A stretch of DNA of 64,000 bases from Coemansia sp. RSA 487 (Eukaryota > Kickxellomycota > Kickxellomycetes > Kickxellales > Kickxellaceae): the NCBI GenBank assembly GCA_027577595.1, contig JANBRJ010000024.1:124001-188000 (forward strand), in the 5' to 3' direction. The notes under the pieces were generated by a model that had not been told where the DNA came from, searched no databases, and worked only from the letters and a program-made list of their open reading frames with translations. Shown one piece after another: positions 994 through 45,011 of the stretch. A program made the translations under genes and the position numbers. Position 1 is the first letter of the stretch; each line of letters opens with the position of its first letter.

Positions 994-3679
994 ATGCTGT
1001 GGCCTCTGCTTCTCTGCGGCGCCGCCAGCCTGCTGGTCATTCTGCGGCTCCTACACTCGTACGGCGACCGCAGGCGCTGCGCCTGGTATGTGCAGGTTGC
1101 AGCCGTCGCCAGCTGGTACCTACCGTTTACAATTGTGTTCATCCTGCCGTTTGACTTCAGCTCGGTAAGTGTCGCAGTCCTGCACTCGCAAAAGCGGCGG
1201 GGTATGGGGCGATATTCTCTGTGCATAATGCAGCCAGCCATTGCTAACGCCATCTCCTGCTTCCAATCTGTAGACACTCTATCGCACATGCAACCAGAAC
1301 TGCAGCGAGCCCGTCGGCTACATCGGCTCCCACTTCACACACGACCTGTGGGCCGTGCTGTACTGGACCATGTATCTGCTCACCTGGCTCGTGCTTCCGC
1401 TCATGATGTCCTACGTCGACTCTGGCGCATTCGCCTTCAGAGACCGCCTGCGTGCCGCCGTGTGGAGCAACCTGCAGTTCTACGGCATTAGCGGTGCCGT
1501 CGGCATCCTGGTGGTTGGCTACATAGCGCTGACGCGCGGGTTCTTTGGCGCCGACCTCATTGCGTTCCTGATGGCGCTGGCCAACTTCTGGGGGCTTTTC
1601 CTCGTCATCACGTTTATGGGCTTTGGACTTGTTTCGATTCCTCGCAAGCTCTGGCGCTGCGGCGACCTGGAGCTGGAGCTGGCCAACATCGAGGGCCGCG
1701 CTATGGCCCACAAGGATAAGGCGTATGACTCGGCCCTGGAGCTTGCTGAGACCCTCAACGAGGCACAGCTCGTCTCTGCACGTATCAACTCGGCCGACGA
1801 TCTTCGCCACTGCGTTGACCGGATCATGGAGCACTGCTCTCGGGTTTCGCAATCCAGCAGACTTCCGCCCCAGAACGTTGCCATGTCGTCACGCGTGCCC
1901 GCAGACATCTCGGAATCATATCTTGCGAGCCTTCATAACAGGATCAAGCACGCGCTGCTGAAGGAGGAGCGCGACCGCTGGCGGTGGACTAGGTCCGCAC
2001 ACCGCGCCTTCTTCCTCCAGGACACGATAAAGTCGCGCACAAACCCGCGGAGGCAGTTCAACTCCACGCTTGCGCCATGGAGCCACTGGGGAATGGCCAG
2101 GCGGTCCGCTGCGTGGTGGTGGTACGTAGCCCTCCGCCCGGTCGTCTGCCGCTCGTTGGCTGTGGGTGCTGCCGTGCTGAGCGCGGTCATCCTGTGGTCA
2201 GAGCTGACGTTCAACTTGGCGTCGTCGCACATATCGGCTGTGCGCTATCTCCTGCGCGCCCTGGACCTGTCTTATCTGGCCATCGAGGTCTCCAGCATCG
2301 TGGTTATCGCATACATGTGCCTTTGCGCCTACAGCTCGGTCATGAAGCTGCGTATCTTCAACATATACTCGCTAGAGTCGCACCATCACACAAACGAGCG
2401 AAGCCTACTATTCTGCGGCGCATACCTCTGCAGGCTGATGTTTCCTCTCTGCTACAACTTCCTCAGCATGGCCGGCAGCGGCTTTGCGGACGGCAGCGAC
2501 AGTAGCGAGATCACCGAGTTTGCCGGGTTCATGGACCGGATCGACCTTGTACCGGTGTTGGGCGAGCAGTCGAACCGCGTGATACCCGTGCTGATCATGA
2601 TTCCTGCCGCGCTTGCGCTCTTCAACGTGCATGGGCGCGTAATGGAGTACTTCAGCATCGACCGCGTGGCGTCGACGTCGCAGTCAGCCGATGGTCCGGA
2701 CGAGGAGCTCGGCCCGCTGTGCCTGCCGCACGAGGAGGGCCGCGGGCTGCTGGCAGAAGCAAGGCTTGCAGCAGAGCGCGAGCAAGGCACTGCTGACACC
2801 CCCCGCTACTCGCCCGCTGGCTCCGCATACTCGAGCAATGCAAACCTCCGCGCGCATGCGGCCTCCATCAGCGCAGCGAGCGACTTTCCTGCTGCCACCA
2901 GACGTGGATCACACGAATGGTATCTGGGTCGTTCCTCCTTCGACCACGCGCGCGACGACGTCTCTGCCGATCTACTGAACGACCACTCCAGCCTCTTGGC
3001 GGTGGGAGACCACGCACCTCACTATCAAGGCCGCCGGCCGTTTGGCAACTACTCCAGCCATCCTGACCTTGTCGGAATAGCAGATGGCAACAGCAGCAGC
3101 AGTGGTAATGGCAGTGCCAGTGGCAATGGCACCAGTCGTAGAGTCGGTAATGCCAACGGCGCAGGCGTCGTTTCAAGCAATATCCTCGGCCATGCTAGCA
3201 CTAGACTCGACGTCCACAGCGACAGCAACGACTCAAGCAGCGTGGAAAACAGCGGACAGGCTAGCCATGGCTCGAATCCGCTTAGCCCACGTGGCGCGCT
3301 AAAGCCCACAGGCATGGCTGCTCGCTTCGGGCGCCTTCTGCCTGCACGGCAGGGCTCGCAGCTGTCCAAGACGCGGTCCAAGTTCAACGCTGGCAGACCT
3401 AGCAACGTCACCCGCCTGCGACCTTCGTCGCGCCAGTCGAGCCGCAGCAACTACGCCAGTGATGAGGGCGTGCATCCGGCCCATCTGCTTAGCCCGCGAG
3501 GCGGAGAGAGCGTGCGCAGTGCTGCACAGCCCCAGACCGGCCACCAGCCGCTGGTTCTGTCGCCATCCAGCCCCGGACGGATGCCCAATCCGTGGGCCGA
3601 CGGCGCTGACACCCGTTCACAGGCCCGGCGCCACGCTCTGTCAGACAGCTCAGCGCGTGCATACACGCCAAAGAGCTGA
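994..3679 (+). CDS. LMBR1 domain-containing protein 2 (LMBRD2) homologue, two exons
   Basis: Exon 1 is 994-1164 and exon 2 is 1274-3679, joined by an intron with GTAAGT and TAG ends. The product is about 858 residues. The N-terminal half is a multi-pass membrane protein with a helix at the start (MLWPLLLCGAASLLVILRLL), then FILPFDF, and the conserved WTMYLLTWLVLPLMMSY block typical of the LMBR1 family. A helical cytosolic segment around residues 200-300 separates the two membrane halves. The last roughly 330 residues are low-complexity and rich in Ser, Gly, Asn and Arg, including an SSSSGNGSASGNG run. LMBRD2 proteins are putative membrane receptors or regulators linked to beta-adrenergic signalling in animals; the fungal role is unknown. 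The start was chosen because the upstream exon restores the first helix. Confidence 0.85.
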
Positions 3680-3788
3680 TCCTCCACACAACCACACCAA
3701 CTGATTTGTAATGTACATGCTCCTTTTCTTTCATCCATAGCGACCAATGTTACTTTTTTAATCGTAGTTTTCAGTTGGCTTATATGTA

Positions 3789-4754
3789 TTTTGCAAAACT
3801 AATTGCTTCAAATGAGGATATATATACGCGCCGAACGGTCAAAGGTTTGCGGTGGCAATAATGCATTTTGCGTTCCAAGAAAAGCCGTTTGCGCAGGCGT
3901 GGCATGTGCGTTAGTGCAAAACAGGAAGACAAAAAAAACACAGATGATTAGTACCATTGTCAAAAAGCAGTCACAGATGCTTATCTCCTCGGCTCTCATT
4001 TGAGCACCTATCTGCAAAAGGGACACCATCAGTATCTTCCTGTCCTAGAACTAGGATTTGCCGCGGCTATAACCTTGGCTGAATCTCGTGGTGGTTGTTA
4101 TTTGTTCATCCTCGTCGCTGGCTTCTTTTCCTTCTTAGGAGCTGCTGTTCATTGGTGGTAGCAACGGCTGCAGACTGACTGCAGCAAAAGCGCTCTGGAG
4201 TCTCGCTGTGGCCACGAAGACCATGGAAAATATGGCTGAAGTTGAGAACGGCAACGAGATCTCGGCTGTACATGCGAGAACGAGGAGTCAAAGCACCATC
4301 CACTTCCACGGGCTCCATACATAGCTCGCTGGTGCATTCAAGGAGACTGTGGCAGAGCACTTCTTTCATCATCTCTCGTTGGTAGGCAGCATTTTCCAAC
4401 CAAATGCCGGTGTAGTGCTGACACTGATATTGTCAGGCTGTTGAATGCTTCACATAGGCCCTTCTTGATATCTGCCAGCACTGCAGGTGGGTTCTTGTGC
4501 GAGGTAGTGGTGGTATTTCTTCGGATTGCTAGATTTTGTTAGGATTAATATTAACTAACCACATTAAAAGCACAGACAAAGACCGAGAAGCTAGTCCATT
4601 TTAGTGTGAAATAATAGGCGTTTAGCGAACAGCTTTCTCTACAAAGCTCAGTTTGCGCCTCTTGTTTCCAAGCGCAAACATAGCACCAACAGACGCAAAT
4701 ATATCATCATTCAATGTGTATACATCCTTATTTGACGCAATTAGTTTTGCAAAA
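3789..4754 (-). mobile_element. Inverted-repeat DNA element, copy A, with transposase-HTH-like and TnpB/Fanzor-tail-like relics
   Basis: The ends match each other in inverted orientation. 3789-3835 starts TTTTGCAAAACTAATTGC and goes on to a CAAATGAGGATATATATAC-like stretch; its reverse complement is at about 4712-4754. Read on the minus strand, roughly 4493-4395 encodes a segment with TISVSALHRHLV, which resembles the N-terminal helix-turn-helix of IS630/Tc1-type transposases. About 4365-4106 (in an ORF opening at 4399) encodes LLECTSELC, then 18 residues, then RDLVAVLNFSHI. That pattern resembles the second half of the zinc ribbon and the RuvC-III motif of TnpB/Fanzor proteins. At 966 bp it is far too short for either whole enzyme, so it is an internally deleted, presumably non-autonomous copy. 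A related copy lies at about 44011-45011. No clear target-site duplication was found. The family assignment is inference. Confidence 0.65.
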
Positions 4755-4931
4755 CACAGCTTTGTATTTTGAACATGCCAGCTTTGCTATCCACATCAGA
4801 TTGAAACTCCGTGGCACCAGATCCAAGTCTCAAAAATGTTGAACTGATAGATAAATTTTGCAAGTAAACAAGCCAGTTCGGAACATAAAAAGCTATTGAG
4901 AGGAGGAAAACTAGTCGACAGGCGGGGGTGC

Positions 4932-6067
4932 TTATTTCTTGGCGTTCTCCTTCGCCTGCTTGAGCGTGAGCTTGCGCTTCTCGATGTACCCGGCCGACCT
5001 GAAGTCGCCGCGTGTCTTGCGCAGAGTGATGTAGGCGTTGCTCTTCTTCTCCTCGGCGGTGATGGCGCGGGGTGCCTCGGTTTCGATCTCGGCAGCAACA
5101 GGGATCGGCTGGCCGCTGATCTGGACAGCGTTCTTGTAGGCCTCGACATCGGCAGCGCTGCGCTTCTTGGCGCTGAGCGGGAGGACAATGAGCTTGGCGT
5201 GGTACGCCTTCAAGCGCTCGACGTTGCGTGCAAGTGCCTCCTCGCTACGGTTGCGGCGGCGGTAGTCAACAGCAATGCCAATAGTAGCGGCATACTTGGC
5301 GCTGATGCCAGCTGCCTTCAGCTCCTCAAGCGTGAACCCGCGGCCGACGCGGACCTTGCGGTTGTACTTGACGGTGGGGCAGCGGACGGCTGGGCGAAGG
5401 AGCTCGGTAGGGCGCGGAGCGATCTTGGCTGCCTTAGCAACGCGTGCGCGACGGCGACGGAGCTTGCGACCGGGTTGGTTGAACCAAGTGCGGACGCGGA
5501 GATCCCACTCCTTGCGGAGATGAACGTTCGGCAGCTGTTTGTTCTGCATCTATAGGAAAGTAAATGAACATTGATGCCATGTATATTGTTGTTAGTATCA
5601 ATATATAAAACGTTGGGTGCTTTGATTTGCTTCTTGGCACCAGCCATACCAAATGGGCAATAGGACCAACGCAGGAGATCCAAGTCACACCCACGGCTTT
5701 GCCTACATATTTTTATCTGTCTAGAAGCAACTTGCACCTCTCATCAGAGCAGACCTCAATGGCTGTGCTTGTGTCATTTGGCCACATTACAAGAATGTTC
5801 AGTCCTGTGCCACACTGATAGCCAGCAACAACCAACAACATGCGAGAAGCTCTAGCTTGCGGTGAGATGGAACGACAGCCGCATGCAAAAAATATATAGA
5901 ACTCGGTGTTGAAACGCCGCTCCATCAGTTAGACCTTGCGGCTGCGTTGTTTGCTGAGACAGTCCCACATTCTGAACATTGGTCGTTTTGTAAAAACAAG
6001 ACAACTTGTTTTCAGTTATAGAACTATCTGAACTTAGTGGACACAGTGTGCTCCTCACCGCAACCAT
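4932..6067 (-). CDS. RPL13: 60S ribosomal protein eL13
   Basis: The main exon, 4932-5549, encodes NKQLPNVHLRKEW, then the eL13 signature blocks AAKIAPRPTELLRP, CPTVKYNRKVRVGRGFTLEE and a lysine-rich end. An acceptor CTATAG lies directly before codon ATG at 5549, and a GATACTAAC branch site lies about 45 bases upstream, so an intron precedes it. The best candidate for exon 1 is 6059-6067 (ATGGTTGCG, then GTGAGG). It would give MVA plus the main exon and places the conserved Trp at position 18, as in human and S. pombe eL13. A TTTATATGG TATA-like motif lies about 60 bases farther upstream. The intron would be 509 nt. The protein is a structural component of the large ribosomal subunit. Identity is secure; the tiny first exon is inference. 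Confidence 0.9.
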
Positions 6068-43259: not shown

Positions 43260-44010
43260 GTGGTAAAATAAAGGTATATATCGAAGCTGTTTTGCTCAGG
43301 ACACTAACCACAGCGGCTTGTGTTGTGTGCGTAAAATATAGAGTATAGAAATGGAAAAGGTGCTATTAGAAAGATGCAGCAAGGCAAACGCGTCTACAAT
43401 TTTAAAAACAGAGAAGCACAGGCGGTGGGCAGCAGCTTTTGTCAAAGTTGGAAATGAAAAATTGTTTTTCAAGGAGGTTTCTCCAGAAAAGAAAAGAAGA
43501 GAAAAGTGACGAAGTGAGGGCTGGAACTCTTCGGACATTTGTTGTCCAACAGAAGCCTCGAACTGCCCTTGCTACCATTGGCTGGGAATACAAGCGATCT
43601 GCAAAGTCGATGCACACGTGCAGGCGTTGTTAGGGTTCATGTGATCAAGTGGAAAAGTGGTGACTGCAACACCTTACCGCAATGCTTGTGTATCATCATC
43701 CAACCCTGTCTTGCTTTTGCAAGCCCAAGCTTAGACCTGGACACCTTCAGGTGATTCTAATAAAGAAAAGTTGCCCAGGCTTTTTGATCAAAATAGTAGA
43801 TTGTGCCTCGGCTTCTTTTTACTCCCGTTGCCTGCACAAGCAAGCAGAGAATAAGCAGCAGCAAATACTTGGTGCCATGGGAAAAAAAAACCAAAAGTTG
43901 CCGAACAAAACGCTGCTCATGACTTCCTTGTACAATATATACTTTTCCTGAAGCGAGTCAGGTGAGGTTTTCCTGCCCTTATCAGCGGATTTATCATGCT
44001 GCCTGTTGCT
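43260..44010. other. Upstream region of the F-box gene
   Basis: About 750 bp between the F-box start and inverted-repeat element copy B. Only short ORFs; no gene recognised. Confidence 0.35.
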
Positions 44011-44116
44011 GTATTTTGTAAAGCTGGTTGCGTCGAATAAGGATGTATACGCGTCGAATGGTGAAAGGTTTGCGGTGGTGATAATGCATTTTGTGATCCA
44101 ACAAAAAGTCGTTTGC
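44011..44116. repeat. Left terminal inverted repeat of copy B
   Basis: Matches the reverse complement of about 44911-45011, with a few mismatches and one or two single-base gaps. Confidence 0.75.
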
Positions 44117-44910
44117 ACAGGCGTGGCAAGTCGTTTGCGTCAGTTGGTGTGGCATATGCGTCAGTGCAAGACAGGAAAACACAAGAGAAAACACAGATTA
44201 TTAGTACTGTTGCCAAAAAGCAGTCACATATGTTTACCTCCTCGGCTCTCATTCGAGCACCTACCTACAAAAGGGACATAATCCTATCCTAGAACTAAGC
44301 TTCCTAGAACTAGGGTTTGCTGCGGCTATAACCTTGGCTGAGTTTCGTGGTGGTTGTTATTTGTTCGTCCTTGCCGTCTTCTTTGCCGCTGTCGTCTTCC
44401 TTTTCTTCTTGGACTGCTGTTCATTGGTGGTAGCAACGGCTGCAGGCTGACTGCGACAGAAGCGCTCTGGAGTCCCACCGTGATCGCGAATTCCATGGAA
44501 AATATGCCTGAAGTTGAGAACGGCGGCGAGATATCGGTTGTACATGCGAGAACGAGCAATCAAAGCACCATCCACTTCCACGGGCACATACATAGCTCGC
44601 TGGTGCACTCAAGGAGACCGTGGCAGAGCACTTCTCTCATCTTCTTACGTTGGTAGGGGCGGGTGTTGGGCACTTTCAGGGATTTCTTGAGAGTGCCGGT
44701 GAGGCGGTTGGGTTCTTGTTCAAAGCGGTGGTATTTCTTCAGATTGCTAGGTTTCATTGGGATCAGTGTTAACTAACCACATTGAAAGCACAGACAGAGA
44801 CTGAGAAGCCAATCCATTTTAGTGTGAAATAATAGGCGTGTAGTGGACAGCTTTCTCCACAAAGTCCAGTTTGCGCCTCTTGCTTCCAAGCGCAAGTATA
44901 ACGCCAGCTG

Positions 44911-45011
44911 ACGCAAACGACTTTTCTTGGATCACAAAATGCAGTATCACCACCGCAAACCTTTCACCATTCGATGCGTATACATCCATTGTCGCGATTG
45001 CTACAAATTAT
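44911..45011. repeat. Right terminal inverted repeat of copy B
   Basis: Partner of 44011-44116. The outer end is approximate because similarity fades in AT-rich sequence. Confidence 0.7.

Follow-up and report, generated by a model that had tools for sequence, protein, structure and literature searches.

The window, a stretch of 64,000 nucleotides from Coemansia sp. RSA 487, contains a short inverted-repeat element flanked by two converging open frames, one at 1355-3679 (+), which we take to resemble an LMBR1-type membrane protein, and one at 4932-5549 (-), which presumably corresponds to ribosomal protein eL13. A preliminary description had placed the element at 3789..4754 and had noted that its ends match in inverted orientation. 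The inverted ends are present as arms of 43 nt at 3785-3827 and 4716-4758, which are 88% complementary and separated by 888 nt. The element itself also stands, but its true extent is about 3784-4759, five bases further out on each side. Its right repeat is partly lost, compared with terminal repeats of about 109 nt elsewhere, and its left repeat marks the Fanzor 3' side, where it would form the end point of a putative guide RNA. As drawn here, the remnants of both the Fanzor and the transposase lie on the minus strand. The ORF at 4106-4399 on this strand contains the peptide that had first drawn attention to the locus, LLECTSELC followed further on by RDLVAVLNFSHI. The features of this element, and of a second copy in the window, are collected in Table 1.

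Table 1. Features of the two element copies in the window (positions are those of the window; P0001, parental Fanzor1 protein; P0003, open transposase frame of the parent element L069).
Feature	Position	Strand	Basis or remark
Non-autonomous (ghost) element, 976 bp	3784..4759	+	Aligned with copies elsewhere in the genome; ends placed by means of the terminal repeat
Left terminal inverted repeat, about 109 nt	3785..3893	+	Corresponds to the right end of other copies, inverted
Last few Fanzor codons past the protein alignment, then former 3' untranslated region	3894..4120	-	Position as in parent L069
Fanzor1 C-terminal codons, P0001 residues 664-751	4121..4384	-	tblastn, 70% over 88 residues, E 4e-36
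Deletion junction	4383..4386	.	4-nt overlap between the Fanzor and transposase sides
Transposase start, DDE_3 frame, P0003 residues 1-53	4362..4520	-	37/53 identical, E 4e-23; tblastn E 2e-17
Right terminal inverted repeat, reduced to about 64 of 109 nt	4696..4759	-	Alignment to other copies
Second ghost copy, independent deletion of the 684/6121 junction class	44009..44988	+	Right repeat truncated; junction common to locus L017
Fanzor1 C-terminal remnant of the second copy, P0001 residues 645-744, in two frames	44414..44712	-	tblastn 81-82%, E 2e-40

The suggestion that this peptide is a Fanzor-type tail is borne out by comparison with P0001, a 762-residue open Fanzor1 frame from a longer copy, to whose C-terminus it is identical at 62 of 88 positions (blastp, E 4e-42). 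The nuclease frame of the window copy is incomplete: only residues 664-751 align, a part that includes the second zinc cysteine pair and the RuvC-III RD motif, and RuvC-I and RuvC-II belong to the deleted part. Pfam searches with the window ORF and four other element ORFs returned no match, as might be expected if the resemblance to Fanzor were accidental or the tail came from some other zinc-ribbon gene. This idea is refuted by the 62/88 identity together with the terminal repeats that the window element has in common with the Fanzor1-bearing copy, and we give it practically no credence; judged from sequence, the repeat family in the genome and the match to the Fanzor1 C-terminus confirm that the likeness lies far beyond chance. 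In the HMM comparison proposed at the outset, the window ORF gave nothing and P0001 itself reached 20.2 bits with the PF07282 zinc-ribbon model against a cut-off of 26.3. The Pfam models miss the tail of this Fanzor1 family.

By its sequence, P0001 is a Fanzor1, a putative RNA-guided nuclease. Its closest solved relative is Parasitella parasitica Fanzor 1 (PpFz1; E 2.7e-103; PDB 9cf0, PMC11423790), and it also matches the Spizellomyces punctatus Fanzor (SpuFz1; E 1.4e-43) and Guillardia theta Fanzor1 (E 0.0021). The full protein has the RuvC motifs that had been sought in intact copies: its three RuvC catalytic residues, D457, E637 and D705, are invariant in all ten aligned proteins, the Parasitella protein included, and so are the four cysteines of its C4 zinc finger (C644, C647, C680 and C685) and R704 of the RD motif. 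The catalytic residues align by position with D383, E541 and D606 of SpuFz1, which are described as binding metal ions (PMC10432273), and the order of a C4 zinc finger and then RD within 5-50 residues agrees with the pattern given in PMC3627910. The CxxxxC spacing and the long gap to RD, taken in the preliminary description for deviations from the consensus, are invariant in the ten-protein alignment and normal for the family. An insert of about 100 residues between RuvC motifs of the Parasitella protein, which we infer to be its cyclophilin-binding FRI domain, is missing in P0001. The best 38 of 81 protein relatives of P0001 (66-100% identity) are all from Coemansia. We also observed that P0081 (Coemansia sp. 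RSA 1646, EV178_003263), a 590-residue transporter model, ends in 45 residues that match the Fanzor N-terminus at 42 positions; this tail is either a gene-model fusion or an exonised element.

We searched the 17.8-Mb genome (184 contigs) with the window element as query and found at least 109 matching stretches, with 40 of 193 candidate places scored; over this and the further queries, each gave 193-235 candidate places, of which 40 were scored. At four of the first 30 loci (L026, L027, L029 and L030) the match ends at element position 602, and translation of these loci reveals extended frames resembling Fanzor, which close with ...LLKCTNELC...RDLAAVLNF... and so give the window peptide in full. 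PF07282 matches the genome nine times, once above the cut-off, and the best match adjoins a copy of the window element, 20 nt past element position 602 in L030. Two 10-kb stretches contain whole elements, L069 one of about 6.4 kb and L070 one of about 5.4 kb. Their terminal inverted repeats, which recur in the window element, measure 114 nt in L069 (83%) and 126 nt in L070 (92%). Each carries an open Fanzor frame on the minus strand, of 762 residues in L069 and 757 in L070, and at the opposite end of the element a DDE_3 transposase region encoded in the same direction; the transposase frame is open in L069 (298 residues) and the corresponding region of L070 contains stops. A Ty3/gypsy-like reverse-transcriptase fragment lies antisense between Fanzor and transposase at L069:5923-7337 (+) (PF00078, E 6.9e-32), with further fragments recognized by eye at L070:5857-6615 and L039:1012-1572, and it seems to travel inside several copies.

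Longer copies with the same inverted repeats, for which the preliminary description had proposed to search, are at hand, and the tail belongs in them to a full-length Fanzor1 and not to an unrelated gene family. Positions 1-602 of the window element align to the Fanzor end of L069 and positions 599-914 to its transposase end, so that the window copy represents a single internal deletion with a 4-nt overlap. The junction, at element positions 602/599, corresponds to positions 629/6021 of L069, and the transposase alignment runs slightly across it. Given that the longer copies with the same ends carry a full Fanzor1, and that a defined junction sets the window element apart from them, it is with practical certainty (probability about 0.9) the deletion derivative that had been proposed: a copy of a DNA transposon bearing Fanzor1 that has lost its interior and is no longer autonomous.

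At least 40 loci span a deletion junction. In 39 of the 40, the window copy included, the break falls at 619-629/6001-6031 of L069, and in the remaining one (L017) at 684/6121, the junction also found in the second copy of the window; a further locus, L122, has a larger loss on the Fanzor side (412/6024). Loci from later searches, in which one query started in about 65 nt of L022 flank, were accepted because they span the junction and not by their flank. The two distinct junctions indicate that deletion derivatives arose at least twice. These loci combine the terminal repeats of a Fanzor element with the absence of a Fanzor frame and a high copy number, which defines ghosts, and they are equally short, non-autonomous elements with inverted repeats, one size (two-ended copies measure about 0.9-1.1 kb) and one junction at 39 loci, which defines MITEs.

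Long copies are few. Scoring 59 of 266 candidates turned up at least ten places that match 600 or more residues of P0001 with an identity of 84% or higher; seven of these ten have no stop inside the match, and among the places listed only C19, C5:38076 and C82 run from residue 1 to at least 756 without a stop. Several other long copies break at residues 674-689, ahead of the RD motif. Many Fanzor matches begin within a few bases of a contig end (for example C81, C41, C54, C151, C92, C108, C25 and C38), which indicates that the assembly breaks in this family and that long copies are undercounted.

Over seven long loci, five of them free of stops, the Fanzor frame has a median dN/dS of 0.25 (Nei-Gojobori, 21 pairs). 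The transposase frame, compared at 30 loci by the same method (434 pairs, median 102 codons), gave 0.71, with stops at 19 of the 30, values that are rough because the end of the reference frame may lie in a retrotransposon fragment, inflating both stops and dN/dS. Of 151 transposase candidates, 132 were scored, and among the matches listed (at least 128) the place of the query itself is alone in spanning 290 or more residues without a stop. The transposase frames are mostly broken, and from these ratios the nuclease looks to have been kept by selection while the transposase decayed.

In the ghosts, the Fanzor codons have fared differently. For the Fanzor tail alone, dN/dS is 0.19 in nine long copies versus 0.44 in 34 ghosts, 15 of which have a stop. 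We considered a residual coding constraint on the ghost tail and dropped it, as 0.44 is only a little below the values of false frames, which range over 0.48-0.75 for five false frames of the same stretch and 0.53-0.83 for six frames of the untranslated region; these codons have lost all, or nearly all, of their coding meaning. A tree built from the left half of 27 ghosts and nine long copies is star-like, with long tips and weak support, and does not cleanly separate long copies from ghosts (3 changes). Both this tree and the decay of the codons fit the view that the ghosts are plain MITEs, passive deletion derivatives of which only the terminal repeats work and on which the Fanzor never acts. 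We hold the chances of this view to be even. The tree had also hinted at a recent ghost pair, L119 and L124, whose tips in the left-part tree are below 1%; this idea was dropped, as the outer parts are only 82-84% alike. Their inner part is 94% alike over 702 nt, a pattern that suggests gene conversion.

The ghost copies keep the Fanzor 3' end, and we looked there for a conserved RNA fold. Alignment folding of 47 left ends gave 0.0 kcal/mol, no pair in the last 110 nt exceeded a mean probability of 0.25, and an Rfam search of L069, L111 and L112 returned no match. When 240 nt are folded, pairing is weak at either end, with highest mean probabilities of 0.47 at the left and 0.52 at the right. 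The last 109 nt are common to both element ends, and nothing in the sequence marks the left end as a guide RNA. That no conserved fold was found at the 3' end again favours plain MITEs. The same genome harbours a second Fanzor1 family, L111-L114 (on C113, C101, C66 and C54), with open frames of 763-816 residues that are 85-91% alike in DNA over the gene and 38-40% identical in protein to P0001. All four copies end 128 nt past the last sense codon in a predicted fold of -41.5 kcal/mol, in which 0 of 37 pairs show changes on both sides among the four sequences. This stable fold makes the likely guide-RNA end easy to see in L111-L114, unlike in the window family. No long inverted repeats occur in the stretches of L111-L114 that were read. 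The end of this second family was found at 21 places, 11 of them without a Fanzor match among those listed (59 of 266 candidates scored), and these 11 may be its ghosts.

The transposase that would have moved the window family matches PF13358 (DDE_3, E 3.5e-19 for P0003), and, read from the sequence, 34 residues separate the second D from the E in both P0003 and L039, a DD34E arrangement. DD34E marks Tc1 transposases. Among two-ended copies, however, the expected TA target-site duplication (TA/TA) is present in only 5 of 26, and of 96 repeat lengths and offsets tried only one gave p<0.03, with 3 of the 26 copies. Because the TA test came out negative, we do not file membership of Tc1/mariner as proven. 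When the flanks of 14 copies were joined and searched for empty sites within the same genome, no unrelated place matched. The combination of a Fanzor1 with a mariner-type transposase, or with its terminal repeats, in one element has precedent in elements such as PGv-1, PUl-1 and PUl-4, which Bao and Jurka (2013, PMC3627910) place in Tc/mariner and for which they report TA duplications; compared by description, the Coemansia family differs from them in the TA duplication. Compared in the same manner, our family resembles CMe-1A, presented in that paper as an old Fanzor1 family with copies about 80% alike and some Fanzor frames intact. Coemansia is not mentioned in PMC3627910.

The bases just outside the element set its two ends apart. 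Reading inward from outside, T-R precedes the terminal C at both ends, and A-M-A stands before it only at the right end, so that A-M-A-T-R lies in the flank on the Fanzor 5' side. MATR occurs at 29 of 63 right ends versus 5 of 34 left ends (p=0.002), A at -3 at 42/63 versus 13/34 (p=0.0099) and T at -3 at 2/63 versus 13/34 (p=1.2e-5); A at -5 alone is no different (35/63 versus 14/34, p=0.21). Measured against a flank background of 29.7% A, A at -3 gives p=1.5e-9 at the right and p=0.18 at the left. The test on which we rely leaves out loci known only from queries carrying flank (among L071-L110), as these queries held 3-6 bases of L013 flank and were biased towards TTG; in the larger set with L071-L110 included, T at -2 is found at 63/76 and 47/56 of the two ends. 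One-sidedness extends to ghosts alone in the strict set, with ATR at 21/34 right versus 7/24 left ends (p=0.018, post hoc), A at -3 at 24/34 versus 10/24 (p=0.034) and T at -3 at 2/34 versus 6/24 (p=0.055). In this set p ranges from 0.018 to 0.055 for the strings ATR, MATR and AMATR as well as for individual bases at -3 and -1; at -4 and -5 it is 0.11 or higher (M at -4, p=0.11). In copies without the junction T at -3 occurs at 0 of 27 right versus 5 of 8 left ends (p=1.7e-4), a left sample too small for most tests. The window copy has no A-M-A-T-R; its right flank reads TACAAAG ahead of the element.

A transposase that meets nearly the same repeat at either end would not be expected to produce a one-sided motif, and for this reason we read A-M-A-T-R as a putative Fanzor target motif, with the reserve that the motif was spotted in the data first and that the p-values were not pre-registered. 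The motif resembles the TAMs of SpuFz1 (CATA, PMC10432273) and PpFz1 (ATN, PMC11423790), which have the same place, and is unlike the GtFz1 motif TTAAN (PMC10432273), so that it agrees with two of three known Fanzor1 motifs. The alternative is that the flank motif reflects the sites preferred by the transposase, or a piece of the element's end that had escaped notice. T-R before the terminal C at both ends would suit either a TA-targeting transposase or element sequence, and the subterminal parts do differ between the ends; A at -3, however, is far less conserved than the repeat and rises above background at the right only, and the motif resembles CATA and ATN. We regard this alternative as a serious one that is nonetheless somewhat improbable. 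The one-sided motif, which is seen in ghosts too, is also what speaks against plain MITEs, inasmuch as a transposase should be blind to orientation on near-identical repeats.

The history of the family can be read in part from the junctions. One deletion fused the start of the transposase to the end of the Fanzor, and its product now stands at 39 of the 40 junction loci; a second deletion, with a different junction, founded a second small class. The copies presumably moved by cut-and-paste, the parental transposase acting on their repeats in trans, and such passive spread is likely. They are now old (about 80% alike) and, as the transposase frames found are broken, probably immobile. More tentatively, the Fanzor 3' end may persist in the ghosts because it yields a guide RNA that extends into the flanking DNA; the Fanzor of intact copies might then cut the empty allele beside A-M-A-T-R, and repair would copy the element back. 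By analogy with Spizellomyces ghosts, that guide RNAs from ghost ends direct a Fanzor to cut empty alleles in trans is conceivable, though we think it unlikely. Use of the ghosts by Fanzor in trans is possible: the one-sided motif argues for it and the RNA structure does not.

The closest known case is Spu-1 of Spizellomyces punctatus, for which Saito et al. 2023 (PMC10432273) count 134 ghost loci beside 42 loci with a Fanzor. The account given there reports guide RNA by sequencing and ghost guide scaffolds that work in cells, and describes the role of Fanzors for hosts or elements as unknown. In both fungi many short inverted-repeat elements without a Fanzor frame stand beside fewer Fanzor-bearing ones, the Fanzor 3' end is kept in the ghosts, and Ty3/gypsy pieces lie inside Fanzor elements, as in some of those of Spu-1 (PMC10432273). 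In Spu-1, CA, part of the TAM CATA, lies ahead of the 5' repeat, and in the window family A-M-A-T-R lies on the Fanzor 5' side. The two systems differ in that the description of Spu-1 gives no transposase between the repeats, whereas the Coemansia parent has a DDE_3 transposase, and in that the conserved part of the Spu-1 ghosts is about 550 nt long, with 30-nt repeats (PMC10432273), compared with repeats of about 109 nt in Coemansia. Unlike the Spu-1 ghosts as described, those of Coemansia retain codons of both Fanzor and transposase and have at least two origins. In kind, the window element matches the Spizellomyces ghosts; it comes from another fungus and has its parent's transposase at hand. 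Within the library searched, no paper joins Fanzor and Coemansia, and only Saito 2023 (PMC10432273) brings Fanzor, ghost and mobile together.

The Coemansia case thus adds to the Spizellomyces ghosts a set of transposase-bearing parents and at least two independent ghost origins with readable junctions. It also offers a small number of Fanzor copies that are open and under purifying selection, together with a flank motif that is one-sided in ghosts as well, which makes this genome a good place for testing whether Fanzors serve copies that no longer encode them. The ghosts could be dispersed guide-RNA donors for the few intact Fanzors: the nuclease, still under selection after the decay of the transposase, would take guides in trans from some forty ghost ends and preserve ghost insertions by cutting empty alleles at A-M-A-T-R, acting as a maintenance drive; we put this forward as a doubtful proposal. 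If true, it would mean that the nuclease has outlived its own transposase and maintains elements that no longer encode a Fanzor.
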